A stretch of DNA of 33,702 bases from Candidatus Gastranaerophilales bacterium. GTDB taxonomy: Bacteria; Cyanobacteriota; Vampirovibrionia; Gastranaerophilales; Gastranaerophilaceae. The stretch spans positions 1 to 33,702 of the forward strand of contig CALVAA010000021.1 of the NCBI GenBank assembly GCA_944325315.1, in the 5' to 3' direction. This document shows positions 7,729-15,265 of the stretch, piece by piece; the stretch's first letter is position 1, and each line of letters starts with the position of its first letter. The notes below the pieces were generated by a model. That model did not search any database and was not told the DNA's origin. It was given only the letters and a program-made list of their open reading frames with translations. Position numbers and translations under genes: made by a program.

Positions 7729-8349
7729 CTATTGAATTATAAACTGACCAAAACTAACTCTCATTACTTCTCTTTTGCCTTCAAAAATATTGTTTACCAT
7801 TGCCAGAATTTCTTCCTTAGCAATTTCCTTTCCCGTTGGGGTTGAAAGCTCATCTGAAGTTTTATTGGACAAAACAGATATAATAGCATCCCTAATTGCA
7901 GGTTTATATCTTTCCATTTCTGCTATTATTGCTTCATTTGGATCAACAGGAGCGCTTGCACCATGGCCGCTTGCTTTTGGAGCAGGCATTGAAGCAAGTT
8001 CAATTTCCTCCTGAGTCTTGGATAATTCCATTGCAACACCTACTTTTAGGTATCTTCTTGATGTTGCGTCTGCAAGATTTAAAATGAAATCTCCCAAATC
8101 CAACAAAACTCCTTCTTCTTTTATTTCTTCTCCGTCTTCTTCAAGTTGCTCTATACCGTCTTGGGGAGCAATTTTTGCAATTTTTTTATTAAAAGATGTT
8201 TCAAGCAAAAAATACATTATTGTAAGAGAAATTATAATTACAATAAGCATGACAACATTGTTTAAAATCATCACAACATTTGGGGTCAACTCAAAAGGTT
8301 TTTTATTATTAGGATTTTTATCTGTTTTATCATCTGTAGGTCTTGCCAT
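7729..8349 (-). CDS. fliL: Flagellar basal body-associated protein FliL
   Basis: A 206-aa single-pass inner-membrane protein. After a short Lys/Asn-rich cytoplasmic tail, residues about 24-50 form the membrane helix (MLIVIIISLTIMYFLL). The periplasmic FliL domain follows: VLLDLGDFILNLADATSRRYLKV, then PAIRDAIISVLSNKTSDEL and the final VMRVSFGQFIIQ, all typical of the family. FliL surrounds the stator and supports torque. ATG at 8349 is chosen because it has a GGAGGAAAT Shine-Dalgarno; an in-frame ATG eight codons upstream at 8373 would overlap the preceding gene. Confidence 0.93.
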   Translation of the reverse strand: MARPTDDKTDKNPNNKKPFELTPNVVMILNNVVMLIVIIISLTIMYFLLETSFNKKIAKIAPQDGIEQLEEDGEEIKEEGVLLDLGDFILNLADATSRRYLKVGVAMELSKTQEEIELASMPAPKASGHGASAPVDPNEAIIAEMERYKPAIRDAIISVLSNKTSDELSTPTGKEIAKEEILAMVNNIFEGKREVMRVSFGQFIIQ

Positions 8350-8363
8350 ATTTCCTCCAATTA

Positions 8364-9323
8364 TTATAGCCATTCATTATTTTTTTTATTTCTGAACTTA
8401 AATTTAGAAAAGAAGTTCTTTGTTTTTGTCCCTAATGTGCTTACGCCTTTTTTTGCGCTTACACCTACTGTTTTTATGCCTTCTTTTGTTGTATTTATTC
8501 CATCTTTTATATTATCAACCGTATCATCTTTGAGCTTTTCAGTATCCCATTTTTTTCTCTCAATTTCCGATAGTTCTTTTTTAGAACCTATATTATGTCT
8601 ATCTTTTACATACTGTTTTAGATTTTCTCTTGTAATATAAGTAGGAGGTTCGACATAATTTGGATTCAACATTTTCATTTTAACATTATAAGCAATATCA
8701 GGGCTTATATATTTGGAGTATTCTTTTAATCTTAACATTCCTTCGTAGTTATTTGAAATTGTTGTATCTAAATTTTTCATTTTATTATTTCTGATATTCT
8801 TAGCATAAATGCTTTCCCAAAGAACGGTTTCCTTTTCAACATCCACAAAACCAACATAAACACTTACCCTGTGAGTAGGGTTTACTACATCCATACCCGA
8901 AACATTGAAAATATTCCAAACGGTATTCTTTAAAAAATCACGCTGAATATCCATTCCCATGGTTACAACAACGATTTTTTTAACACCGATTTTTTTGGCA
9001 ATTTTCTTTAAAAGCGGATATTCAATATTGTATCCTTGTTGCAACCCTTGCAGCGCTTCAAGGTCATATTGCCTTAATCCTGCTTGTTTTAATGCAATTA
9101 TAGCCGTATCAATGGGGACAACCTGAACATTTTTTTTCAATAATTGCCCCCTTATATCGGAAGCAAAAAACTCGGGTGTTCTAAAGTATGCATTGTAATA
9201 ATTAACGGGAGTCAGCATAGTATCTGTTATAATCCCGATTTTTTCAAGTGCAAAGGATTGATTCACACTAAAAAACATTACAACAAAAAACAATAAAAAT
9301 CTAAATACAAAACCCCTCATCAT
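8364..9323 (-). CDS. Periplasmic protein of the flagellar cluster, function unknown
   Basis: From the ATG at 9323 it is about 319 aa and begins with a Sec signal peptide, MMRGFVFRFLLFFVVMFFSV then NQSFA, probably cut before LEKIG. The mature N-terminal half alternates strands and helices (KKIVVVTMGMDIQRDF, VSVYVGFVDVEKETVLWES), somewhat like periplasmic lipoprotein-assembly folds such as CsgG/TolB-N; this resemblance is weak. The last 60 residues are basic and helical (Lys/Thr/Gly-rich). It precedes fliL by 14 bp on the same strand, so a role in the flagellar envelope passage is plausible. An upstream ATG at 9404 would give an oddly long signal N-region, so I prefer 9323; neither has a Shine-Dalgarno. 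Confidence 0.75.
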   Translation of the reverse strand: MMRGFVFRFLLFFVVMFFSVNQSFALEKIGIITDTMLTPVNYYNAYFRTPEFFASDIRGQLLKKNVQVVPIDTAIIALKQAGLRQYDLEALQGLQQGYNIEYPLLKKIAKKIGVKKIVVVTMGMDIQRDFLKNTVWNIFNVSGMDVVNPTHRVSVYVGFVDVEKETVLWESIYAKNIRNNKMKNLDTTISNNYEGMLRLKEYSKYISPDIAYNVKMKMLNPNYVEPPTYITRENLKQYVKDRHNIGSKKELSEIERKKWDTEKLKDDTVDNIKDGINTTKEGIKTVGVSAKKGVSTLGTKTKNFFSKFKFRNKKNNEWL

Positions 9324-9462
9324 AATAATTAAATTATCAGCTATATTTTTCTTAATTAAAATCATATATTTAAACGATTTTTTTGATTTTAAAATTTTTT
9401 TCATTAAATAAAAAAATGTAAAGACCGTAAATTAGTATAGAACTATATTTATAGGACTTTAT

Positions 9463-9951
9463 ATGGCTTTTAGATACAGATTGCAAAAAATTCTTGAAAT
9501 TAGAATTAAAAAAAAAGAAGAGCAATTGCAAATTGTAATAAAAGCGCAAGAAGAAGTAAACAGAATCGAGTTTTTAATTATTGAAAATTTAAATCAAATA
9601 AAAAGCTCGACAGCACAAATGCGGCAAGCAGACCCTATGATGTATGAACAATTTGATAACTTTATAAAGCATCTTTGGGAAGAAGACAAAAAACTACAAG
9701 AACAAAAACAAGAAGCAATAAATGAACTAAATAAACAAAAAGATATTTTAAGAATAAAAGAACAAGAAGTAAATGTATTAGAAAAGCATAAAGAACACCT
9801 GAAAGAAGAATACATCAAAGAACAAAAAGCGCTCGAGCTTAAAGAATTAAATGAAATCGGCTCACAAAAATTTTTCATGAAAAACCGTGAAAAAAAAGAA
9901 TTAGAAGAATTTGAAGAATATATAGAAAACCTTAAAAACAATGGAAATTGA
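9463..9951 (+). CDS. fliJ: Flagellar export protein FliJ
   Basis: A 162-aa, almost fully helical coiled-coil protein. It starts MAFRYRLQKILEIRIKKKEE, the typical FliJ opening (F-F/Y-R-LQ-LL--R), and stays rich in Lys, Glu and Gln to the end. FliJ is the stalk of the FliI ATPase ring and links it to FlhA. It opens the rightward flagellar unit, divergent from the periplasmic protein gene. The next gene starts inside its last codons (11-bp overlap), so translation is probably coupled. Assignment rests on the N-terminal pattern, the length and the neighbours. Confidence 0.88.
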   Translation: MAFRYRLQKILEIRIKKKEEQLQIVIKAQEEVNRIEFLIIENLNQIKSSTAQMRQADPMMYEQFDNFIKHLWEEDKKLQEQKQEAINELNKQKDILRIKEQEVNVLEKHKEHLKEEYIKEQKALELKELNEIGSQKFFMKNREKKELEEFEEYIENLKNNGN

Positions 9952-10600
9952 TACTTTAGCCTCAAAAGAATACAGCGAAGATATTATAGAAACTAACCTC
10001 AGAGAAATTTTTCAACAAGGACAATACATCAGGCCCAAAAAAATAAATGCCTTTGATGAAGTCAGGTTGAAATTATCGGAAATTTTTGAAAATTTTTTAA
10101 AGCGTGATGAAAATGCAAGCATTGAAGATTTGTTAAACGACAAATTTTTAGATTTGGATTTTGCTTCGGAATATAATATTGATGCAAGTAAAATCGGAGT
10201 GAATGATGCAATCTTTTTTGTAAATCTTTTAAATCAACAAAATTTAATCAGCTATACTGTTGAAGATAACTCAATAAGCCTCAATACAATAGACAACAAA
10301 AAAATAAACGCAACAAATTCACTTCTTGAGATGCTGAAAAGCTCTTTTGACAGCAAAAAACCAATTAGGCTTGATTTTGATAAAGATGTAACAGTTATTT
10401 TAAAACTTGACCATAAAGGAAAAATCCAAGCACACTTTATACCGGGCAATGCCGAAGTTGAAAGTTATCTTAAAAACAATATATCCTGCCTAAAGCAAAC
10501 ATTTGATAATGAACAAATAAACTACTCTTATTTGGGTTATTCAAAGTATAAAGAAGAAAAACAACAACAAAACCCTAAAAAACAAAAAAAGGAGCAATAA
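9941..10600 (+). CDS. Short FliK-like protein (Flg_hook C-terminal domain)
   Basis: A 219-aa acidic cytoplasmic protein. Residues 140-199 (PIRLDFDKDVTVILKLDHKG, then KIQAHFIPGNAEVESYLKNN and a helix plus strand) follow the FliK C-terminal pattern: a strand pair with alternating hydrophobics, then helix, L-x-L and a final strand. The first 130 residues are helical and do not resemble the long Pro/Gln-rich FliK ruler. It sits between fliJ and a rod/hook gene, the usual place for fliK. It ends in a Lys/Gln-rich tail. If it is FliK, its ruler part is far shorter than usual. The stop abuts the next ATG. Confidence 0.6.
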   Translation: MEIDTLASKEYSEDIIETNLREIFQQGQYIRPKKINAFDEVRLKLSEIFENFLKRDENASIEDLLNDKFLDLDFASEYNIDASKIGVNDAIFFVNLLNQQNLISYTVEDNSISLNTIDNKKINATNSLLEMLKSSFDSKKPIRLDFDKDVTVILKLDHKGKIQAHFIPGNAEVESYLKNNISCLKQTFDNEQINYSYLGYSKYKEEKQQQNPKKQKKEQ

Positions 10601-11434
10601 ATGAGAGATTCCTATATTAACGCAATGAACACCCAAAGAACAACGGTTCAGTGGATGAATGCAATATCAGAAAACCTTGTTAATTTATATACACCGGGCT
10701 ATAGAGAAAATCAGGTAACATTTAAAACATATCTGGATAGTGCCGTTCCTGACATGGTTTTAAAAAACTCGGGTCAAGGAAAAGCAATACCCGGAACTTC
10801 AAATGAAAATGTATTTTTAGAGGGCAAAGGCTTCTTTGTTTTAAGAAATGACGAAGGAAGAATTGCATATACAAGACTGGGCGAATTCAAATTTGACGGC
10901 GAAGGTGTATATAGAGCAACTGATGGCTCTAAAGTACAAGGATACATTCTAAACGACAAAGGCGAAATAATGTCCGGAACAAAATCTTTAACTTCTGATT
11001 CGTATGAAGATACAATTGCACAAGGCGGAGCACTTGCAGTTCCCACAACCGAGATTAAGCTTTGGATAGACCCTGATAACGGAAAGTATCTTGGAAAGTA
11101 CGACGAATTCGAGATTAAAGAAGACGGAATTTTATACGGGAAAGCAAACAACGGAAAAGACAGTGCTCCCCTATACAAGCTTGCTATAATGAATTTCCAC
11201 AACCCCCAAGAGCTTTTTGAATACAAACAAGGGCAATACCTGGAAACCGAATACTCGGGAAAACCGGTTATAGGAAAGGGTGAAGTAAGAAGCGGACTTT
11301 TAGAATTATCTAATATTGATTTTAAGGCAAATGCCACATACTGGCAGCAAGCAAACACCCAGCTGGATTTGTCCGGTAAAATAATGTCTACATACAAACA
11401 ACTGTTAGAATCAGCAATGGAATTATTGAGCTAA
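10601..11434 (+). CDS. Flagellar rod/hook protein (FlgF/FlgG/FlgE family)
   Basis: A 277-aa axial protein. The N-terminus MRDSYINAMNTQRTTVQWMN, then ISENLVNLYTPGYRENQ, is the flagellar basal-body rod motif (N-L-N-T-G-F/Y). The middle holds GFFVLRNDEGRIAYTRLGEF, the common FlgF/FlgG/FlgE block. The C-terminus (VRSGLLELSNIDFKANATYW then a helix ending SAMELL) is the paired rod helix. Length suits FlgF or FlgG better than FlgE; TPGYRE resembles FlgF. There is no Sec signal, as expected for an export-apparatus substrate. An AAGGAG Shine-Dalgarno lies 7 nt upstream, overlapping the end of the FliK-like gene. Confidence 0.88.
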   Translation: MRDSYINAMNTQRTTVQWMNAISENLVNLYTPGYRENQVTFKTYLDSAVPDMVLKNSGQGKAIPGTSNENVFLEGKGFFVLRNDEGRIAYTRLGEFKFDGEGVYRATDGSKVQGYILNDKGEIMSGTKSLTSDSYEDTIAQGGALAVPTTEIKLWIDPDNGKYLGKYDEFEIKEDGILYGKANNGKDSAPLYKLAIMNFHNPQELFEYKQGQYLETEYSGKPVIGKGEVRSGLLELSNIDFKANATYWQQANTQLDLSGKIMSTYKQLLESAMELLS

Positions 11435-12163
11435 ATGAAAAAAATTATCTCTCTTTATTTAATGATATTTGTTTACTTCTGCGCAATTAATTTCGGCTAT
11501 TGCGCAGAAGATTTTTTCTTTGATTCAGGCAACACAAAAAAAAGCAGTCCTAAAACTTTGTTTAAAAAAGAGAGAAAATGGTGGTTTTTTAATAAAAAAA
11601 ATGATAATGAACCCCAACAAGGATACAGCGGAGTATTGCCCAACATAGAAGATGATTTTAAATATAAAAAACAATCAACAACAACACAAAAACAGGATAT
11701 GATTATTCCGGAAGAAAAAAATATAGAAGAAGAAAATCTCAAACAAGCTCCTTTCAATGATGCGCTTTTTTTAGATGTTATTGTTAAAAAAGAAAAGTCT
11801 TCAAATTATGTTAATGATCTTCAAAGAACAAAATTTGCACTTAATAATTTAAAAAAGTGTATTGAAAACAAAGAAGACATACAACGTTTTAATGCTTGCG
11901 TAAATATGGTTGATATGTATGTTAAAAATCTTCAAAATAAATATCAAGATACCTCCACGAGCTTGAAAGAAAGCTATATTGATATTTTAAATACCAATTA
12001 TTATGCAAAACTTTTGGGAAATTTAAAATACGATTCAAATTACTACTCGCAATACATTCCGACTTCACAAGGCAAATACTCTAAAAGCAATATTGAACAA
12101 GAAGAAGAAAAACTTTTAAACAGAATAAATAAAACTTTATTTTTAATTAATAATGAAGCATAG
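11435..12163 (+). CDS. Secreted protein at the end of the flagellar unit, function unknown
   Basis: A 242-aa protein with a Sec signal peptide (MKKIISLYLMIFVYFCAINF, then GYCA and probable cleavage before EDFFF). A charged low-complexity stretch rich in Lys, Asn, Gln and Glu runs to about residue 105, followed by a helical domain with two cysteines (KKCIEN and NACVNM, about 15 residues apart) that may pair. Its ATG follows the rod/hook stop without a gap, so it is co-transcribed and probably co-translated. No family is recognised. The position suggests a periplasmic or outer-membrane role in flagellar assembly (P/L-ring or chaperone type), an inference from context alone. Confidence 0.75.
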   Translation: MKKIISLYLMIFVYFCAINFGYCAEDFFFDSGNTKKSSPKTLFKKERKWWFFNKKNDNEPQQGYSGVLPNIEDDFKYKKQSTTTQKQDMIIPEEKNIEEENLKQAPFNDALFLDVIVKKEKSSNYVNDLQRTKFALNNLKKCIENKEDIQRFNACVNMVDMYVKNLQNKYQDTSTSLKESYIDILNTNYYAKLLGNLKYDSNYYSQYIPTSQGKYSKSNIEQEEEKLLNRINKTLFLINNEA

Positions 12164-13135: not shown

Positions 13136-13167
13136 GGCTCTTGTGGAGAGAACAAGAGCCTTTTTTT
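13136..13167 (+). terminator. Strong terminator with no obvious gene upstream
   Basis: A perfect 9-bp stem, GGCTCTTGT (13136-13144) and ACAAGAGCC (13152-13160), a 7-nt loop and seven T. It is oriented for plus-strand transcripts, but no gene ends nearby on that strand; AT-rich TATAAA boxes lie at 13106 and 13113. It may end a small RNA or stop readthrough into the converging gene. Confidence 0.7.
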
Positions 13168-13774
13168 ATTTTAGTGCTTTTTTATAAATTAAAATCAACG
13201 CAAGAATTAAAGAATACAAAACAAGCTCGGCAGTTTCTTCAATAACCGTACTGTGCAAACTTGTCTCTGAAATAATTTGCAATAAAACACACAAACAGCA
13301 ACAAAAAATTTCAAAAAAGGGAATCTTCACTTTTTTTAAAACAAAAATTGCATCAATCCAAACTTTATTTATAATCGCATAAATGCTTCCCAATGCAATA
13401 TACAAACCGACAACATAATTTGCAATCCAACCGTATTTATAATCCCTCCAAGGATGCATGGCATTAGGGCCTTCTTCCGGTATCATTGCAAAAATAGCCC
13501 TTCCATAGCTTATTTCTCTCATAAACATTAAAAATAATACAATAGCTATAACTCTAAATAAAACCTTGTTCTTTTTTACACTAAAACAAAAGAAAAAAGC
13601 AATCATCAAAACAATAAGCTGCGTGTTTTCCAGCAAACTGTTTTCATAAATTTCTACAATATTAAAAATCCTAACTGTGACTATGCTGAAAATCAGCGCT
13701 GTAAAAGCCACAGCAATTTCTTTTTGCGGCAGAAAATTAAATCTATTCAATAAATTCCAAATGTTTTTCTTCAA
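13166..13774 (-). CDS. Integral membrane protein, function unknown
   Basis: A 202-aa protein with about six hydrophobic helices. The third is followed by MREISYGRAIFAM, which resembles the EEISWGQ/REISWGR signature seen in several uncharacterised small membrane proteins, and by an amphipathic stretch with MHPWRDYKYGW. A run FEIFCCCLCVLL in a late helix has four cysteines in five residues. The frame begins with TTG at 13774, and the next Met is more than 50 codons inside, so TTG is the probable start. It is divergent from the FlhA-like gene with only 39 bp between them. Confidence 0.65.
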   Translation of the reverse strand: MKKNIWNLLNRFNFLPQKEIAVAFTALIFSIVTVRIFNIVEIYENSLLENTQLIVLMIAFFFCFSVKKNKVLFRVIAIVLFLMFMREISYGRAIFAMIPEEGPNAMHPWRDYKYGWIANYVVGLYIALGSIYAIINKVWIDAIFVLKKVKIPFFEIFCCCLCVLLQIISETSLHSTVIEETAELVLYSLILALILIYKKALK

Positions 13775-13813: not shown

Positions 13814-15265
13814 ATGGAAAAACAATTTAGACAAGAATTCTCAATAAAATCTATTCCAACAGACGATACAACACTTTTGGAAAATACCTTAAATGCAATG
13901 TCAGCTTCGGATTGGGAGCTGTATTCAATATACGAAGCAGAGCAAAATTCAAAAATAGTATACAACTGTATTTTTGTAAAAGAAATACAAAACTCAAAAG
14001 ACAACTCTGATGATGAGTTGGTAAACTACAGAAGCTCGGTTGAGCGTATGTTGTATTCCAAAGATGAGCCTTATGAATTATGCATTAACATGCAAAAGAA
14101 AATTTCCGATAAAAAGGATAAAATAGAACGCATAAAAAAATTCTTAGAAAGCTCAAAAGACGAAGAAAGAGAGCTTTTAAACGAAGAGATAAAAAAAGAT
14201 ATTGATGAATTAAACGACTTGAAGCGTGATTTAAAAGAAATTCTCGCTCCTTCTAAAATGACAAAATTTTTGGGCGAACAAAAACTCTCAATAAGCCTTA
14301 GCTCTGAAAATTATTGCCTTTGCGATCCGGCATTAGAAAAAAATTTACTATCGCAAACTGTTAAAGTGCGTCAGGAATTGACGAATGAATTAGGCTATAT
14401 TATTCCAAAGGTTCAATTTATTGAAAATTCTTCTTTAGATGAATTTGATTTTTCAATAAATGTCCATGGCGTAAGTGTAATTTGTGCCAAAGCATATCCT
14501 GGCTATCTTGCTTTTTTTGAAGACGAATTAAATTTCGATAAACCTCCGAAAAAATCTTTTAGAGTGAAAGACCCTCTGAGCAAAAGAAAAATTATCTGGA
14601 TAGAAAAAGAGGAGTGCCAAAACTATTGGGCTGAAGGAATTGAGCCCGGCGAATATATTGCAAATTATCTGAGTTACTTTTCAATAGTCCATGTTGATGA
14701 AATTTTCGACTACAACGATTTAAACCGCTATGTTGAATTTGTAAATAACCAAAATTCTTTTTTAACGGACTCAATTTTAGGAGAATTCATCAGTATTTCA
14801 GAACTTAAATATGTTCTTGTACAATTAATAAGAGAAAGAGTAAGCATTAAAGATATTGTCTACATTTTTGAAAAATTAAACGATTTTTCGGACGATTCAA
14901 ATAAATCCGACCTGTTAGACAGGCTAAGAATTGCGCTTTCAAGACAAATTTCAGACAGCATAGCGAATAAAGACAAGGAAATCTTTGCTTATGAAATAGA
15001 CGACGATACAATTGAACTATTACAAAAACAAACAAGCAAAGAGGAATCCGCAGTAAAAATAGATCTTTCAAAGTTTTCAAAGTTCAAAAAAATATTAAAA
15101 GAAACAAAAAAAGATATAATAGAACAAAATGCCGTTCTTGTTGTACCGCAGCAATACCGCCAAATAATTTTTATTCTTGTTTCCCAGTTATTTATGGATA
15201 TTCCTGTCATTTGCTTTGAAGAAATATCTCCGGATTATAAATTAAGAATTATGGGCAAAATATAA
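13814..15265 (+). CDS. Membrane-free FlhA cytoplasmic-domain (FHIPEP) protein with extra N-terminal domain
   Basis: A 483-aa soluble protein. Residues 157-483 match the cytoplasmic half of FlhA: RQELTNELGYIIPKVQFIEN and FDFSINVHGVSVICAKAYPG (subdomain 1), IANYLSYFSIVHVDEIF (the T-V-D-x-x-x-V block), ISELKYVLVQLIRERVSIKD, and the C-terminal AVLVVPQQYRQIIFILVSQL then IPVICFEEISPDYKLRIMG. The roughly 300-residue FlhA membrane part is absent. Instead, residues 1-58 form a small domain (LENTLNAMSASDWELYSIYE) resembling DUF4177-type folds, and 85-145 a charged coiled coil. ATG at 13814 follows TAAAAT (13802-13807) by 6 nt without a Shine-Dalgarno. It may form a free ring or dock export cargo; a full-length FlhA is expected elsewhere. 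Domain assignment is from motif reading. Confidence 0.85.
   Translation: MEKQFRQEFSIKSIPTDDTTLLENTLNAMSASDWELYSIYEAEQNSKIVYNCIFVKEIQNSKDNSDDELVNYRSSVERMLYSKDEPYELCINMQKKISDKKDKIERIKKFLESSKDEERELLNEEIKKDIDELNDLKRDLKEILAPSKMTKFLGEQKLSISLSSENYCLCDPALEKNLLSQTVKVRQELTNELGYIIPKVQFIENSSLDEFDFSINVHGVSVICAKAYPGYLAFFEDELNFDKPPKKSFRVKDPLSKRKIIWIEKEECQNYWAEGIEPGEYIANYLSYFSIVHVDEIFDYNDLNRYVEFVNNQNSFLTDSILGEFISISELKYVLVQLIRERVSIKDIVYIFEKLNDFSDDSNKSDLLDRLRIALSRQISDSIANKDKEIFAYEIDDDTIELLQKQTSKEESAVKIDLSKFSKFKKILKETKKDIIEQNAVLVVPQQYRQIIFILVSQLFMDIPVICFEEISPDYKLRIMGKI

Follow-up and report, generated by a model that had tools for sequence, protein, structure and literature searches.

The open reading frame at 13814..15265 of the window, the 33,702-nucleotide stretch of a Candidatus Gastranaerophilales genome analysed here, encodes a soluble paralogue of the cytoplasmic domain of the export gate protein FlhA (FlhA-C). 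Judged from sequence, this protein, which we call S, belongs to an ancient, order-wide family of single origin that is newly recognised here. Searches of the literature, mainly open-access, returned no description of a free FlhA-C paralogue and no protein with the architecture of S, as the initial annotation had supposed. To our knowledge, the only role considered for FlhA-C has been that of the gate's tethered docking ring. We tentatively propose, at somewhat less than an even chance, that S is derived from the FlhA of a second flagellar-type system (FlhA_B) and has been neofunctionalised into a soluble protomer that regulates the FlhA_B ring by docking on it.

Domain architecture of S

S is a member of the FHIPEP family (PF00771): its Pfam match scores 155.3 bits against a gathering cut-off of 29.1 (E 3.1e-45) and aligns residues 129-475 with profile positions 321-656 of 657, the cytoplasmic half only. 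Profile positions 1-320, the membrane half with the FHIPEP loop, have no match in S. Its sequence relatives in the PDB are cytoplasmic domains of FlhA and SctV (best 3mix, 9.6e-21). In an AlphaFold2 model (monomer, 34-row alignment, pLDDT 81.5), residues 154-483 superpose on FlhA-C 6ch1 with Z 30.1 and an rmsd of 3.5 over 324 residues; on this model, the C-terminal part of S has the four-subdomain fold of FlhA-C and SctV-C. The Pfam match and the superposition bear out the FHIPEP cytoplasmic domain that had been assigned initially. The parts of S are as follows.

13814..15265, plus strand: S, soluble FlhA-C paralogue, 483 aa, ATG start (ORF, profile match, model)
13823..13990, plus strand: aa 4-59, DUF4177-like beta-alpha-beta-beta domain (DUF4177 match; pLDDT 90)
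13991..14065, plus strand: aa 60-84, variable linker of low model confidence (pLDDT mostly below 60; dN/dS 0.27)
14069..14242, plus strand: aa 86-143, predicted antiparallel coiled-coil hairpin with helices 86-113 and 116-143 (model; dN/dS 0.08)
14249..14266, plus strand: aa 146-151, linker peptide with P146 and M149, at the site of Salmonella FlhA E351/W354/D356
14273..15262, plus strand: aa 154-483, FlhA-C fold, D1-D4 (Z 30.1 to 6ch1)
14300..14302, plus strand: S163, which replaces the GYXLI hinge glycine G368 (alignment)
14570..14665, plus strand: D253, S256, R258 and N284, the former chaperone dimple (Salmonella D456 kept; F459, L461 and T490 lost)
14705..14941, plus strand: aa 298-376, D3, best conserved relative to FlhA_B (S-B identity 0.36, A-B 0.35)

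The N-terminal domain is similar in sequence to DUF4177 (PF13783), which is matched by 14 of 15 S family members with E values of up to 1 (best 4.6e-5). Given that the scores in the two genomes with a whole-genome match, 23.0 and 22.1 bits, lie below the Pfam curated cut-off of 25, we call the domain DUF4177-like rather than a DUF4177 member. A DUF4177-like domain followed by a coiled coil had been predicted from the outset, and both the resemblance and the hairpin at 86-143 hold, while the DUF4177 cut-off is not reached. Foldseek returned no match under 0.001 for this domain, its best VIA match (KCTD5, Z 6.2) is uninformative, and no PDB sequence relative was found. The end of the second hairpin helix aligns with the linker of FlhA_B. 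Compared with two FliJ sequences by hhalign, the hairpin gave a probability below 1%, coiled coils being poorly aligned in such comparisons; the idea of a FliJ mimic thus gains no support. Some family members (L066 5022-6554, L054 2965-4482) carry insertions after the 'EKLND' segment of D3 (alignment A1, columns 380-402). Promoter-like sites around S are no commoner than chance, and the terminator scan found just one short, weak hairpin 3' of its stop codon.

S thus resembles FlhA-C, the C-terminal half of FHIPEP, in its fold, the order of D1-D4 and several ring-contact positions, and differs from FlhA in lacking the membrane half and FHIPEP loop, in the loss of the hinge glycine and of F459, L461 and T490, in its added N-terminal domain and coiled coil, and in being encoded alone. 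The injectisome SctV-C domains (CdsV, SsaV, YscV) belong to the same fold family, with a lower score of S against HrcV (91.6 bits) than against FlhA (142.8 bits). In Campylobacterota, the C-terminal domain of FlhB has a soluble paralogue, FlhX, which is likewise a cytoplasmic domain of the export gate that lacks the membrane half; unlike FlhX, S is homologous to FlhA rather than FlhB and carries a DUF4177-like domain and a hairpin.

Two flagellar-type export systems and the setting of S

The S genome has flagellin and system A, the canonical flagellum, which comprises FliP, FliR, FlhB and FlhA_A plus its own FliF. System B comprises a transglycosylase, FliE, FliF, a gene in the FliG position without a Pfam match, FliH and FlhA_B, with FliO, FliP, FliQ, FliR and FliM/N nearby and a second FlhB elsewhere; its loci include L069 9404-15997, L078 6628-10272, L161 8426-9448 and, most likely, 7729-12163 in the window. 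Our literature search, mainly open-access, yielded no paper describing system B. Partial flagellar gene sets of Gastranaerophilales have been read as not coding for a functional flagellum (Soo et al., 2014; PMC4040986), and these previously reported sets may represent system B.

Six relatives (G010, G028, G029, G030, G033 and G034) are without flagellin. Each has one FlhB and keeps the B-type FliF and FlhA; no A-type FliF and no A-type FlhA were found in these six, with one further weak FliF match of 50 bits in G034. A seventh genome without flagellin, G047, is 87% complete, had its FHIPEP matches covered in part, and was placed outside the six. S is present in four of the six (G010, G028, G033, G034), which indicates that it is independent of system A, as these genomes have neither flagellin nor the system-A FlhA, FlhB and FliF. 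System B also occurs without S, in G029, G030 and G537, and FlhA_B-like genes are found in other orders. Since almost the whole order has system B, co-occurrence with S is no proof of a link.

The initial annotation had S standing away from the flagellar operons, which is wrong for the window: a cluster of export genes ends at 12163, 1.65 kb upstream of S. This cluster most likely belongs to system B, because its FlgE/F/G-like gene is kept in 6/6 flagellin-less relatives. It is listed here with the gene next to S.

7729..8373, minus strand: FliL, in the system-B cluster near S, its functional tie to S putative
8364-9404, minus strand: protein of 346 aa without a Pfam match, beside FliL, system-B cluster
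9463..9951, plus strand: FliJ/YscO-like, system-B cluster
9941..10600, plus strand: FliK-like (Flg_hook 0.00039, below cut-off)
10601..11434, plus strand: FlgE/F/G-like rod or hook protein, also kept in genomes without flagellin
11435-12163, plus strand: protein of 242 aa without a Pfam match, beside the rod/hook-like gene, system-B cluster
13166..13774, minus strand: membrane protein of 202 aa and no known family, divergent from S and 39 bp from it

The 202-aa membrane protein adjoins S only within the genus, in several of its species. Across relatives, no conserved S operon or set of neighbours was found, and in most genomes the adjoining genes, judged by eye, are housekeeping-like. In two close genomes, G040 (L074 889-6576) and G045 (L050), S lies immediately 5' of FliJ-FliK-FlgD-FlgE on the same strand, an adjacency limited to this pair.

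Distribution and descent of the S family

Among 382 genomes of the class (286 Gastranaerophilales and 96 others), S is present in about 283 of the 286, as counted by hand from the table at a best E of 3e-137 or better. G029, G030 and G537, all Gastranaerophilales, have matches at the level of full-length FlhA only; because G597, a congener of G029, carries S, its absence from G029 points to a recent loss or an assembly gap. S is absent from all 96 other genomes: their best match (6.5e-81) is again at the full-length FlhA level, and best matches, where checked, lie in open frames of 630-720 aa. Three assemblies, G272 (C3), G532 and G549, contain S yet no further match to its profile; as G272 retains FlhB, an assembly gap is the likelier cause of its lack of FlhA. 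Within the genus, pairwise dN/dS comes to 0.08 for the N-terminal domain, 0.08 for the hairpin, 0.10 for FlhA-C and 0.27 for the linker 60-84, and selection on the folded parts of S is strongly purifying.

A tree built from 79 cytoplasmic domains gives S as one clade (100/100) that adjoins FlhA_B, the split between S plus FlhA_B and all others being supported at 91/81; the placement beside FlhA_B is likely rather than certain, because the tree tool warns of long branches. Well-conserved residues point the same way, with 19 common to S and FlhA_B and absent from FlhA_A, and four common to S and FlhA_A and absent from FlhA_B. The 19 include two linker positions: P146 is proline in 25/25 S and 19/19 FlhA_B and R/K in FlhA_A, although proline is also common here outside the order, and M149 is methionine in 23/25 S and 19/19 FlhA_B and valine in FlhA_A. 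FlhA_B of the same genomes is therefore the closest relative of S, sharing the linker P/M and 17 further diagnostic residues; unlike S, it is a full membrane gate protein of about 700 aa, encoded beside FliE-FliF-FliG-FliH. Neither equivalog cut-off of NCBIfam is reached by S, which scores 142.8 bits against FlhA (TIGR01398; cut-off 772.1) and 91.6 bits against HrcV (cut-off 692.25). Against TIGR01398, full-length FlhA_B itself falls below the cut-off at 687.5 bits, and FlhA_A lies above it at 848.6 bits. These scores and the tree put S with FlhA, beside FlhA_B, and speak against an origin from SctV. It is thus likely, from its sequence affinities, that S derives from FlhA_B with loss of the membrane half.

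A match confined to the C-terminal half of the FHIPEP profile could also be expected of a split or frameshifted flhA, or of a decaying remnant, a reading that we discount almost completely. The genome holds two full-length FlhA genes (C2:102273-104258 and C5:48981-50957), and tblastn searches with their two membrane halves found none in the window or in 56 S neighbourhoods, while two positive controls were recovered. Two full-length genes and no membrane half nearby in relatives rule out a split gene, as does an identical architecture throughout an order, and dN/dS of about 0.1 rules out a pseudogene. The earlier view of S as a soluble FlhA-C paralogue distinct from flhA, missing its membrane half, has therefore withstood each of the findings that would have spoken against it: S matches FHIPEP, relatives have no membrane half upstream, full-length flhA is present, and the architecture is conserved across relatives.

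Surfaces kept and lost, and what S may do

Residues are numbered after Salmonella FlhA, with the sequence taken from the 36hw alignment; we take this sequence to be Salmonella FlhA because GYXLI, W354, D456, F459 and T490 fall at their published positions. The chaperone-docking dimple consists of D456, F459 and T490, and complex formation requires D456 and L461 (PMC5932034, PMC8166844). D456 is kept in 24/25 S, while position 459 is mostly Thr or Ser, position 461 polar or charged and position 490 variable; in FlhA_B, position 459 is still aromatic and position 490 still T/S, while L461 is not kept. The loss of docking residues makes the carriage of cargo, an early suggestion for S, less likely, although S may still bind at this cleft in some form, D456 being kept. 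The open-close motion of FlhA-C is under the control of G368 in the GYXLI switch motif (PMC9431611), which is Gly in 14/14 FlhA_A and 19/19 FlhA_B and Ser in 24/25 S.

Contacts within the FlhA-C ring come from D1 and D3 (PMC7584215, PMC8635156). Positions of the SsaV R563/E482-type ring salt bridge are kept in S, FlhA_A and FlhA_B (in S, R377 in 23/25 and E/D at E296 in 23/25), as is the E488 ring-contact position; the remaining SsaV salt-bridge positions are conserved in none of S, FlhA_A and FlhA_B. With subdomain boundaries that we take to be those of the Salmonella structure, the ratio of S-B to A-B identity is 0.98 for D1a, 0.97 for D2, 0.96 for D1b, 1.05 for D3 and 0.58 for D4, where D2 is poorly conserved whichever groups are compared and absolute S-B identity per subdomain is only about 0.2-0.36. 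By these comparisons, the ring-forming D1/D3 half of S stays B-like and D4 has diverged.

Rather than being the export gate itself, S is probably its regulator or adaptor, and plausibly competes with, caps or regulates it, as had been envisaged at the start. FlhA_B-derived S would have lost its membrane half and gained the DUF4177-like domain and coiled-coil hairpin. Most likely cytosolic, it would dock onto or into the cytoplasmic FlhA_B ring by way of the D1/D3 faces and the B-type linker peptide. Once docked, it could not take chaperone-cargo in the usual way, the dimple being lost, and its open-close motion would probably be restricted, the hinge glycine being replaced; it would thereby limit or time access to the gate, while the N-terminal domain and hairpin bind a partner. 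We infer ring docking, regulation of system B and such a partner from the fold, the clade with FlhA_B, the B-like D1/D3, the kept salt-bridge positions and the lost dimple and hinge, together with the retention of S in flagellin-less genomes and a dN/dS of 0.08-0.10 in its folded parts. The missing conserved neighbourhood, the occurrence of system B without S, the kept D456 and the low S-B identity count against this proposal.

Some of the same points would fit an exaptation of S to some cellular function outside secretion, with the fold alone kept, which we consider unlikely but worth taking seriously: S has no operon linkage and housekeeping neighbours, system B can do without it, and G272, G532 and G549 have S and no other profile match. 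Yet the gate-assembly surfaces of S are its most B-like parts, and G272, with its FlhB, has more likely lost FlhA to an assembly gap. Rather less probable is that S acts as a free homo-oligomeric ring or monomeric adaptor, a cytosolic sorting platform that would collect cargo through the DUF4177-like domain and hairpin and hand system-B substrates, chaperones or FliJ/FliK to the gate. Its ring-forming subdomains and linker peptide, an FlhA-C fold naturally suited to docking, the kept D456 and its position directly upstream of FliJ-FliK-FlgD-FlgE in G040 and G045 would suit this role; however, the known chaperone dimple is dismantled, D4, which is part of the cargo and FliJ clefts, is the subdomain most diverged from FlhA_B, and the FliJ linkage is confined to two close genomes. 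The same linkage, and the flagellin and system A of the S genome, might suggest a part in the canonical flagellum, for example as a hook-to-filament export switch. We regard this as very improbable: the sequence affinity of S is to FlhA_B, and its survival, intact, where flagellin and the system-A FliF, FlhB and FlhA are lost largely rules out a system-A role.

Returning to S as a regulator of the FlhA_B ring, a free FlhA-C that keeps the ring-forming parts and discards cargo docking and hinge would lend itself naturally to acting as a dominant-negative or timing subunit, and would allow a test of whether the FlhA ring is regulated through subunit exchange or capping. The surfaces kept and lost in S make this a specific, testable prediction. 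With S, a second flagellar-type system also comes to notice in the Gastranaerophilales, the non-photosynthetic gut relatives of cyanobacteria. The broader picture, in which the order as a whole runs a second, flagellin-independent flagellar-type export machine and a dedicated, cargo-incompetent S controls its gate ring by entering or capping it, is on the doubtful side; if true, it would add a new regulatory layer to type III export, with a conserved protein family of its own.
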